The position numbers were made by a program, and so were the translations under genes. Below the pieces are notes generated by a model. It worked only from the letters and a program-made list of their open reading frames with translations. It searched no databases and had not been told where the DNA came from. A stretch of 64,000 bases of DNA from the NCBI RefSeq assembly GCF_001049755.1, contig NZ_CVLB01000001.1:1940995-2004994 (forward strand). Direction: 5' to 3'. Positions 39,926-42,833 of this stretch are shown piece after piece (the first letter of the stretch is position 1; each line of letters begins with the position of its first letter). This stretch comes from Brachyspira suanatina (GTDB lineage: Bacteria; Spirochaetota; Brachyspiria; Brachyspirales; Brachyspiraceae).

Positions 39926-40798
39926 ATGGTTATCAACAATAATATAAGTGCTATAAACGCACAACGCACTTTAAAATTCCGCCAAGTAGATCTTAAAAAA
40001 GATGCTGCTCAAATTTCTAGCGGTATGAGAATCAATCAAGCAGGAGACGATGCTTCTGGATTAGCAGTATCTGAGAAAATGAGAACTCAGATTCGTGGTT
40101 TACGTATGGCTGAAAGAAATACTCAAGACGGTATATCTTTCATTCAAACTACTGAAGGATACTTAGAAGAAACTACTAACATTCTTCAAAGAATTCGTGA
40201 ATTAGCTATACAAGCTGCTAACGGTATCTATACTGACGAAGACAGACTTTATGTACAAATCGAAGTTTCTCAGTTAGTAGATGAAATCGACAGAGTTGCT
40301 TCTCAAGCTCAATTCAACAAACTTAACATGTTAACTGGAAGATTCGCTAGATCTACAGGTGAAAACACTCCTACAGCTTCTATGTGGTTACACATCGGTG
40401 CTAATATGGACGAAAGAAAACGCGTTTATATCGGTACTATGAACAGCCAAGCTCTTGGACTTAAAAACCCAGTTGGACCTGCTGTTACAGCTACATTTAT
40501 CAGCGTTTCTAGCCCAGCTAAAGCTAACTCTGTTATCGGTATGGTAGACGAAGCTCTTCTTAAAGTATTAAAACAAAGATCTGACTTAGGTGCTTATCAG
40601 AACAGATTAGAAATGACAGCTCAAGGCTTAATGGTTGGATTCGAAAATATGCAGGCTTCTGAAAGCAGAATTCGTGATACAGATATGGCTGAAGCATCAG
40701 TTAAACTTGCTAAAGATCAAATTCTTAACCAAGCTAACTTGTCTATGCTTGCTCAAGCTAATCAGTTACCACAAGGTGCTCTTAGATTATTACAATAA
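39926..40798 (+). CDS. flaB: Flagellin FlaB, periplasmic flagellar core protein
   Basis: 290 residues, the core filament protein of spirochaete periplasmic flagella. The D0/D1 N-terminus ([54 protein letters not shown]) and C-terminus ([27 protein letters not shown], shortened here) are conserved; the middle is short, as in other FlaB, with no surface-exposed D2/D3. There is no signal peptide because flagellar type III export is used. Codon use differs from its neighbours (more C-ending codons), as for a very highly expressed gene. GGAGGA is the ribosome site. Monocistronic, with a sigma-28 promoter and a strong terminator. Confidence 0.95.
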
Positions 40799-40911: not shown

Positions 40912-41289
40912 TTATATATTTATTACCATATTAAACTGTTTTGATATCTCTCTTTTTATAGCACTTAAATATTGAGATACTGCTGACTGTGTTACATTAA
41001 GTGTTTTTGCTAATTCCTCCTGACTTTTTCCTTCTGCAAATAATTTCATTATTCTTTTTTGTTTAGGTGTAAGTATAGCTATTATTAAATTTGAAACCCT
41101 ACTATATTCACTTTCTGTTAAAGCATTGGAATACAGTATATTATCCAAATCTTCATTTGTTAATACACTTTCTCTGCTATCTGTATTATCAGAATTAATT
41201 TTCCTAGTACCTAAACTTTTATTAATCTCTTTCAAAACATCATTACAAAGTTTTTTACAAGTATCATATTTAGAGCATAAATGACACAT
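40912..41289 (-). CDS. Small HTH regulator (sigma-70 region 4-like)
   Basis: 125 residues. The C-terminal half is a helix-turn-helix of the sigma-70 region 4/LuxR type: LTPKQKRIMKLFAEGKSQEE, then LAKTLNVTQSAVSQYLSAIK (about 66-112). The N-terminus MCHLCSKYDTCKKLC contains four Cys and could bind a metal or redox-sense. No sigma region 2 is present, so it is not a full sigma factor. Second gene of a two-gene operon; its AAGGAG lies within the last codons of the gene upstream, 4 nt away, indicating coupling. The palindrome at 41531-41574 over the operon promoter is a natural candidate operator. Confidence 0.7.
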   Translation of the reverse strand: MCHLCSKYDTCKKLCNDVLKEINKSLGTRKINSDNTDSRESVLTNEDLDNILYSNALTESEYSRVSNLIIAILTPKQKRIMKLFAEGKSQEELAKTLNVTQSAVSQYLSAIKREISKQFNMVINI

Positions 41290-41293
41290 TATA

Positions 41294-41518
41294 TCAATAC
41301 TCCTTTAAAATATATAATATTCTGTCTAAAATTTCAGGTTTATAATTTTCTATATCGATATTTTCTAATTGCCTGATAGCATTCTTTATATCAACACGCA
41401 TTATAACCCATTCCTCCCAATTAGTTTTTTTGTTGTAAAAATAATCATCCTCCTTAATGTTGTCTAATATGTTCTTTATAAGTTTCTTATAATAAAGTGT
41501 TTTTTGTAACCTTTTCAT
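41294..41518 (-). CDS. Small protein of unknown function, first gene of the HTH operon
   Basis: 74 residues, Lys/Ile/Asn-rich, mostly helical (KRLQKTLYYKKLIKNILDNI at the N-terminus); no recognised domain, signal or membrane segment. TAGGAG is 8 nt upstream of the ATG. It is translated just before the HTH protein and probably acts with it or controls its translation. Confidence 0.55.
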   Translation of the reverse strand: MKRLQKTLYYKKLIKNILDNIKEDDYFYNKKTNWEEWVIMRVDIKNAIRQLENIDIENYKPEILDRILYILKEY

Positions 41519-41530
41519 AATAAAAACTCC

Positions 41531-41574
41531 TAGTAAATAAATACAGTATTATAATATACTGTATTTATTTACTA
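41531..41574. promoter_or_regulatory. 44-bp perfect-arm palindrome over the HTH operon promoter
   Basis: Arms of 19 bp: tagtaaataaatacagtat (41531-41549) and its exact reverse complement (41556-41574), with TATAAT as the 6-nt centre. A minus-strand TATAAT -10 box (41548-41553) is nested within it, so a dimeric repressor bound here would block the promoter; alternatively it forms a leader hairpin. The start codon is 13 nt away. Part of it, tacagtattataatata, recurs at 8608-8624. Confidence 0.7.
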
Positions 41575-41735
41575 TAAACTATATAAAATAAATTACAATA
41601 GACACTAATGTATTTTTATACAATAGTTATTATAAAAATAACAATTCTAGTATTATAAGAATACATTTGATACAAATAAGCTTTTTATAATAAAATATTG
41701 AAAATCAAGATATGAATTTTTACTAATAAAATAAA

Positions 41736-42833
41736 CTAATTAATATTTTCAAATTTGTCTAAGACTATTTTAAAATCATCAATATTTATATAGAAATCAA
41801 AATCATTTCCTTTATTATGCATATTTTGATACACATAATTTTTTTCATTATTTTCAATGTACTCTAAATATTGACCACCTATAGTTTCAACTATATATTT
41901 ATATGTATCTTCAGCTCTAATATTAGGTACGATACCAAGTACAGATATAGTTTCTTTTGAACAAACAAGATTTGTAAGCCCACTTCCTAATATTGAAATT
42001 ATTTTATCAGCATTATAGAACATACAAAGTTGTTCTTGTAAAGAATATTCTTCAGGACATATCATTTTATAACCTAATTTAGATAATATATCCATAAGAT
42101 TATCTTCATTTAAAATTCTTCTAGTTTTTACATTTCTTCTAGTTAAATATATTTTTTTTGGGAAATTATTAATATCATAATTTTTTATTAATTCTTTTGA
42201 TAATTCTCTATACTTATTGCATATCCAAATATCAGGATAATGAGTATTTGTACTTGGAAAAGATGATAAATATAAATTCTCACACAAAATTTCTGTTTGA
42301 TCTGAAATATATATTATTTTTTTATTATCAATTTGAAACATATCCAAACTATCTTTATGAAATTTTGAGTTACACCCATCTCCCAAAATAAAAGCATCTA
42401 TTTTATCCAAATATCCTGCATCTTTTAATATAAAAAGTCTAGGTAAAGTTTCATGCATCCAATGCCCAAAACAAACATTCCATATAGACTGAAGACTAAA
42501 TACATTTAAGTTAGTTTTCTTTCTAAATCTAAATTTATAGAATGCAAATCTTCCGCCTAATTCTGCTTTAAGAGTCAAAATTTTATTAAAAGGTAATGAC
42601 TCTTTTATTATTTTATTATCACTTGTAAAACAAAATCCCCAACTAGAATATATTTTAGCATCTTTTAATTTACAAAGAAAATTATCAATATTTGAATTTT
42701 GATATTTTATAGGAATATATAAATCTGTTTTTATATCTTTTATAGAAACAGAATTATTTTCTAATTTTTTAGAAACTTTTTCACCTATTTTATTTCTTAT
42801 ATTACCGTTTAAAATTTTATTTCCAAAACCCAT
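41736..42833 (-). CDS. GT61-family glycosyltransferase
   Basis: 365 residues of the DUF563/GT61 type: NVCFGHWMHETLPRLFILKD (about 113-132), KKIYLTRRNVKTRRILNEDNL and the C-terminal SLQEQLCMFYNADKIISILG followed by SGLTNL. Bacterial GT61 enzymes transfer sugars onto surface polysaccharides or glycoproteins. It stands alone between a regulator operon and a 500-nt spacer; there are no other sugar genes nearby. AGGAAT precedes the ATG. The substrate is not predictable. Confidence 0.85.
   Translation of the reverse strand: MGFGNKILNGNIRNKIGEKVSKKLENNSVSIKDIKTDLYIPIKYQNSNIDNFLCKLKDAKIYSSWGFCFTSDNKIIKESLPFNKILTLKAELGGRFAFYKFRFRKKTNLNVFSLQSIWNVCFGHWMHETLPRLFILKDAGYLDKIDAFILGDGCNSKFHKDSLDMFQIDNKKIIYISDQTEILCENLYLSSFPSTNTHYPDIWICNKYRELSKELIKNYDINNFPKKIYLTRRNVKTRRILNEDNLMDILSKLGYKMICPEEYSLQEQLCMFYNADKIISILGSGLTNLVCSKETISVLGIVPNIRAEDTYKYIVETIGGQYLEYIENNEKNYVYQNMHNKGNDFDFYINIDDFKIVLDKFENIN

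Follow-up and report, generated by a model that had tools for sequence, protein, structure and literature searches.

Xpf is the sigma-like positive control factor of PBSX, the SOS-inducible defective prophage of Bacillus subtilis. In Brachyspira, the gene transfer agent (GTA) VSH-1 (BhGTA) can be induced by mitomycin C (PMC3163572), its induction has been tied to the SOS response (PMC5147047), and carbadox and similar farm drugs induce particles that move resistance genes between cells (PMC9662315, PMC3163572). How the Brachyspira GTA is regulated was listed as an open question in a 2024 review (PMC11841831), and our literature search found neither a regulator nor a promoter motif described for VSH-1/BhGTA. 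Here, we describe a small two-gene operon of Brachyspira suanatina whose helix-turn-helix (HTH) regulator may be the switch for these virus-like gene-transfer particles. With a candidate regulator gene, its putative operator, an SOS box, and a promoter motif from which a regulon can be predicted, GTA control becomes directly testable.

Organization of the Operon and Its Predicted Promoter

The operon lies on the minus strand of the window (the whole 64,000-nt stretch of B. suanatina DNA that was analyzed) and is preceded by a long palindrome. Its features, in the direction of transcription, are the following.

41607-41624, minus strand: SOS/LexA-type box ATTGTATAAAAATACATT, 18 bp, identical to the box in the recA promoter of this genome
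41593-41598, minus strand: predicted -35 element TTGTAA, from the TTG(T/A)AA conserved in the ortholog alignment
41571-41576, minus strand: predicted -10 element TATAGT, 16-bp spacer, likewise from the alignment
41531-41574, minus strand: palindrome, 44 bp, with perfect 19-nt arms and a 6-nt loop
41542-41563, minus strand: putative operator core TACAGTAT-N6-ATACTGTA, 22 bp, in 17/23 orthologs, single exact copy per genome (11 genomes)
41527-41531, minus strand: ribosome binding site AGGAG (plus-strand CTCCT) of the first gene, read from the sequence, touching the palindrome
41294-41518, minus strand: ORF1, 74 aa, kept with the HTH gene across the genus, of no known family
40912-41289, minus strand: HTH protein gene, 125 aa, with a sigma-region-4-like C-terminal DNA-binding domain and an N-terminal C-x2-C-x5-C-x3-C

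A first-pass annotation of this DNA had reported a 44-bp palindrome with perfect 19-bp arms just before the ribosome binding site of a minus-strand operon encoding ORF1 and then the HTH protein. Gene order and placement were confirmed, and a direct sequence check found the coordinates exact and the arms (41531-41549 and 41556-41574, 19 nt each) 100% complementary. The same annotation had noted neither the upstream promoter nor the SOS box, and it had not recognized that the HTH protein comes from phage. In orthologs, TTG(T/A)AA and TATA(T/A/G) occur about 17 bp apart, and the operon promoter is predicted to be TTGTAA-16-TATAGT, upstream of the core, rather than the TATAAT previously noted on the minus strand within the palindrome, which proved to be variable loop sequence absent from relatives. 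Transcription is predicted to start near position 41564, on the border of the core, which would span about +1 to +22; this position over the predicted start site fits a repressor operator. The operon was convergent to a flagellin gene (window 39926-40798) in all genomes looked at, and its other neighbor, which varies among genomes, is here a glycosyltransferase-61 gene (window 41736-42833).

Conservation of the Palindrome Core in Brachyspira

No perfect inverted repeat in the window is longer than that of the palindrome, with its 19-nt arms (the runner-up has 13 nt), and the maximum in 30 first-order Markov sequences of equal length was 15 nt. The perfection of the outer arms is specific to this species: when compared with relatives, the outer 11 bp of each arm were seen in B. 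suanatina alone, and alignment with orthologs traced the long outer arms to about nine extra bases on the gene side that no other species has. This insertion of ~9 nt looks more like the product of a template switch than like selected sequence.

Conservation was confined to the 22-bp core. Of the 26 Brachyspira genomes, 23 encoded an ortholog of the HTH protein, and alignment of the regions upstream of these orthologs revealed the core, intact or with one change, in 17 of the 23, located 263 to 274 bp before the HTH gene. Searches without mismatches returned one copy in each of 11 genomes, invariably before this operon. When one mismatch was allowed, additional copies were rare, and none was present in the three genomes lacking a detected HTH gene (G001, G003, and G013). 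The core is therefore neither unconserved beside orthologs nor a dispersed repeat, either of which the first-pass annotation had named as evidence against an operator. Arm positions 4 to 11 were invariant in 15 distinct sequences save for uncompensated single changes, and the outer pairs held in few relatives. Two elements of the first proposal find support, an operator-like palindrome conserved at the start of the operon and N-terminal cysteines that are invariant in the HTH protein; the outer arms and the nested TATAAT are not conserved. Judged by its sequence conservation, the core is a genuine control site, which related Brachyspira retain where this small regulator operon of phage derivation begins.

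Several orthologs depart from this pattern. Four (G011, G012, G014, and G017) have only the left half of the core, embedded in a different palindrome, G020 has an altered operator (TACAGT-N5-ACTGTA), and the operator region is missing from G002. In the latter genome (Brachyspira alvinipulli; L109 6323-6366), the orthologous operon lacks the -10 element, the palindrome, and the ribosome binding site, and the SOS box nearly abuts the start codon, through either a deletion or an assembly error.

The 3.26-Mb genome was examined by pattern searches and in selected stretches. The half-site search proposed at first pass, once run, gave 333 matches to TACAGTAT vs. 127 for the reversed control; almost all copies checked were intragenic, reflecting coding composition, and the sequence was dropped as a regulon half-site. 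A 15-nt perfect copy of palindrome sequence (AATACAGTATATTAT) also occurs within the HTH gene (window 41130-41144). One-mismatch copies of the core were found between the divergent portal and methyltransferase-like genes of the prophage (G000:C3:253451-253472) and at G000:C30:1538-1559. A general prophage role for the core was rejected, with only the prophage of this genome having a one-mismatch copy (twice, on C3 and C30), near portal, and the core being absent or degenerate in other prophages. The exact core occurred in 29 viral contigs, none of them among the 11 contigs that carry a full-length HTH relative.

An SOS-Type Box Shared with recA

The SOS/LexA-type box is located ~32 bp upstream of the palindrome. 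Its recA counterpart, identical at 18/18 positions, sits on the other strand, with TTGACA on one side and the -10 element on the other. A box of this kind was seen in nearly every Brachyspira recA promoter we examined; since G001 has one without having the HTH gene, the box does not depend on the HTH protein. The 16-nt pattern WTGTATNNNNATACAW had only nine matches in the genome, comprising recA, this operon, a site ~370 bp before ruvB, and six others. The site near ruvB, a classical SOS gene, is at G000:C3:146379, and no tRNA lies in the intervening gap.

The genome encodes LexA (TIGR00498, E 3e-55, over cut-off). Since the operon box is identical to that of the recA promoter and LexA is present, the operon is probably under LexA/SOS control in this genome. 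The box precedes the predicted -35 element, a position that is not the commonest for LexA repression and that counts against our best explanation. Among the 23 orthologs, the operon box was perfect in 7 and matched at least 11 of 12 positions at the same place in 10; it was degenerate in G007 and in G011, G012, G014, and G017. No clear copy of the recA-type box was found in the promoter of lexA or its orthologs. These promoters were strongly conserved around TTGACATCATATTTTTRTATAGTATAATAACAAATAC, and the palindrome was not conserved there. The palindrome was dropped as a LexA box, given that its half-sites face outward and their spacing differs. In G011, lexA is split into two overlapping frames (C1:1319573-1320188), by a frameshift or a sequencing error.

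The HTH Protein and Its Prophage Paralogs

The C-terminal half of the HTH protein is a sigma-region-4/NarL-type HTH (Pfam Sigma70_r4_2, 31.2 bits vs. a cut-off of 25.7), and sigma-4 and NarL-type folds were among the top matches of a structure search, all with E > 0.3. TIGR02937 scored 40.6 bits, under its cut-off of 42.9, and only the second half of that family was matched. Family profile searches found no region 2, and therefore the protein is not a sigma factor. NF005385 (NCBIfam 'positive control sigma-like factor') was a weak match, with 21 bits against a cut-off of 136. The N-terminal cysteines that had already been noted are four in number, and C2, C5, C11, and C15 were invariant in 19/19 relatives, phage proteins included. 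This suggests a bound metal or cluster, and metal or redox sensing by the protein is possible. The N-terminal part of the predicted structure was of low confidence.

Searches for relatives of the HTH protein gave matches in Brachyspira and prophage-type contigs only. Beyond the orthologs, full-length relatives were Brachyspira prophage proteins, 30 to 43% identical, and INPHARED phage records contained no full-length relatives. In the prophage of this genome (C3, ~230 to 262 kb), the HTH paralog is encoded between tail and lysin genes and preceded, in the place of ORF1, by a 63-aa gene that is possibly related to ORF1 (26% identity, weak). The recognition helices of the chromosomal and prophage proteins are near-identical (TQSSISQKLEAIK against TQSAVSQYLSAIK). 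Prophages with HTH paralogs mostly lack the palindrome yet share a different promoter motif, and so the HTH protein may act mainly at sites other than the palindrome. The HTH gene comes late in the prophage operon, before the lysin, an odd place for a gene whose product would act early as an activator. Palindromes (AACTTTAGATTTTCTAAAGTT) that precede the prophage HTH paralogs were set aside as incidental, being located inside a tail gene.

A Promoter Motif Common to GTA and Prophage Operons

Using the lysin, we located the chromosomal GTA locus at G000:C3:310964-328476, followed by chemotaxis-receptor genes. This stretch matches the described layout of VSH-1/BhGTA (PMC9662315, PMC3163572) in its size of ~16 kb, in the lysin being the sole match to phage families, and in the adjoining chemotaxis-receptor genes. 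Its capsid-type protein was 91 to 99% identical across genomes.

The motif CTTATA-N4-CTTATATTTTT was common to prophage portal operons and chromosomal GTA (VSH-1-type) operons. At the GTA locus, CTTATAATCACTTATATTTTTT, with TATAA ~8 bp further on, was found upstream of the first head gene and again within the cluster (G000:C3, about 310.9 and 313.3 kb). The corresponding position before prophage portal genes was occupied by CTTATATTTCCTTATATTTTT, at a distance of ~15.6 kb from the HTH paralog of the prophage (in G007, and three times in G010). The motif also occurred before GTA tail operons and before terS-like, phage-replication-like, and radical-SAM genes, which together with the GTA head operons could make up a scattered GTA regulon. 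The exact motif was present in only 43 of the 2.9 million viral contigs, and 9 of these were among the 11 that carry a full-length HTH relative; the nominal P of ~1e-42 for this overlap is overstated because the phages are related, and these are not nine independent events.

The absences coincided in G001, which had no HTH gene, GTA lysin, or motif copy, but co-occurrence was not complete. G020 has the HTH gene, with no GTA lysin or exact CTTATA motif detected, and in G013 motif and lysin were present and the HTH gene was not found, possibly through an assembly gap. Prophages G015:C17 and G023:C1 contain the motif, with no HTH paralog detected.

Proposed Mechanism and Alternatives

We favor a joint model, to which we assign a probability of roughly 0.42, whereby the core is a repressor operator, LexA and the SOS response govern release, and the HTH protein is a late activator of GTA operons. 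From its conservation and position, the core would act as a repressor operator that covers the transcription start of a phage-derived regulator operon of two genes. The identity of the SOS box to that of recA points to LexA binding on the same promoter, so that in this genome the operon would be freed from repression upon DNA damage. The operator would be a second lock, closed through auto-repression by the HTH protein, which is one candidate for the palindrome binder, or by another host repressor. Prophage homology and the shared late-promoter motif make activation of CTTATA late promoters our best guess for the function of the HTH protein, a phage-type late-gene activator that would recognize CTTATA-N4-CTTATATTTTT as direct repeats immediately before the -10 element. 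It would thereby turn on the chromosomal GTA (VSH-1-type) operons, and the prophage paralogs would do likewise for prophage late operons. One member of this phage late-activator family would then have been fixed on the chromosome beside flaB and put under SOS control and an extra operator. Our confidence in this joint model is held back by the exceptions G013 and G020, the motif-only prophages, and the late HTH position in prophages.

Stated more specifically, and only tentatively, the operon could be the GTA master switch. It would encode an SOS-released, cysteine-cluster, sigma-4-like activator of prophage origin with a scattered regulon (head, tail, terS, and replication-like genes) reached via CTTATA-N4-CTTATATTTTT, and the palindrome would be a second lock specific to the chromosomal copy.

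The alternative that survives best, plausible though not favored, is that an alternative sigma factor or other regulator reads the CTTATA promoters and that the role of the HTH protein is unrelated. The two prophage types with the motif and no detected paralog would be expected on this reading, as would the late place of the HTH gene in prophage operons. However, HTH relatives and the motif occurred together in 9/11 viral contigs, and unrelated head genes (GTA vs. HK97-type portal) share the motif where genomes share the HTH family.

Two further readings concern only what binds the palindrome, and each is somewhat less probable. Under simple auto-repression, the first-pass proposal, an HTH dimer would bind the palindrome and shut off its own operon, with nothing else special about the locus. 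A single site in each genome, invariably next to the same regulator gene, is what local autoregulation typically shows, and a site at the transcription start suits a repressor. Prophage paralogs with a near-identical recognition helix, however, mostly lack the palindrome, G011, G012, G014, G017, G020, and G002 retain the protein and not the palindrome, and this reading accounts for neither the SOS box nor the phage connection. About as likely is binding by another host repressor, encoded elsewhere, that would tie the operon to a further signal. As a host repressor would imply, the palindrome belongs to the chromosomal copy, and prophages with the same protein family essentially lack it, but the genome has no other zero-mismatch site and a regulator with a single distant target would be unusual. 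An RNA element, in which the palindrome forms a 5' mRNA stem-loop that protects the mRNA or tunes translation, is improbable despite the prediction of a strong hairpin in this genome (-21.7 kcal/mol, z -5.6; weaker in relatives) that ends at the ribosome binding site, and a DNA operator fits better because core bases vary without compensation (0 compensatory changes in 15 distinct sequences, with uncompensated ones occurring), while the outer arms are unpaired in most relatives, a start inside the palindrome would leave the left outer arm mostly untranscribed, and no Rfam family matched.

Comparison with Known Systems

Like LexA-controlled SOS promoters, recA and this operon have an inverted repeat of the Escherichia coli geometry, TGTAT-N4-ATACA, in a genome that encodes LexA. 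They differ in their half-site, (A/T)TGTAT in Brachyspira in place of CTGTAT, and in the uneven presence of the operon box among species; LexA binding is predicted. With Xpf of PBSX, the HTH protein shares small size, a phage-type character, a sigma-region-4-like domain, and a proposed activation of late particle genes after DNA damage. It differs from Xpf in its score of 21 bits, well short of the family's 136-bit cut-off, and in having a four-cysteine N terminus, a putative palindromic operator of its own, and a gene outside the structural cluster. We liken the protein to Xpf or to GafA of RcGTA by analogy, claiming membership in neither family. GafA is much larger, and no sequence relationship between the two is claimed. 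The likeness to GafA lies in the proposed role of dedicated GTA-operon activator, in sigma-factor-like similarity of DNA binding, in proposed binding near the -35 and -10 elements, and in being encoded apart from the structural genes. Whereas RcGTA is controlled via CtrA, quorum sensing, and LexA via CckA, in Brachyspira the SOS box is on the proposed activator gene itself.
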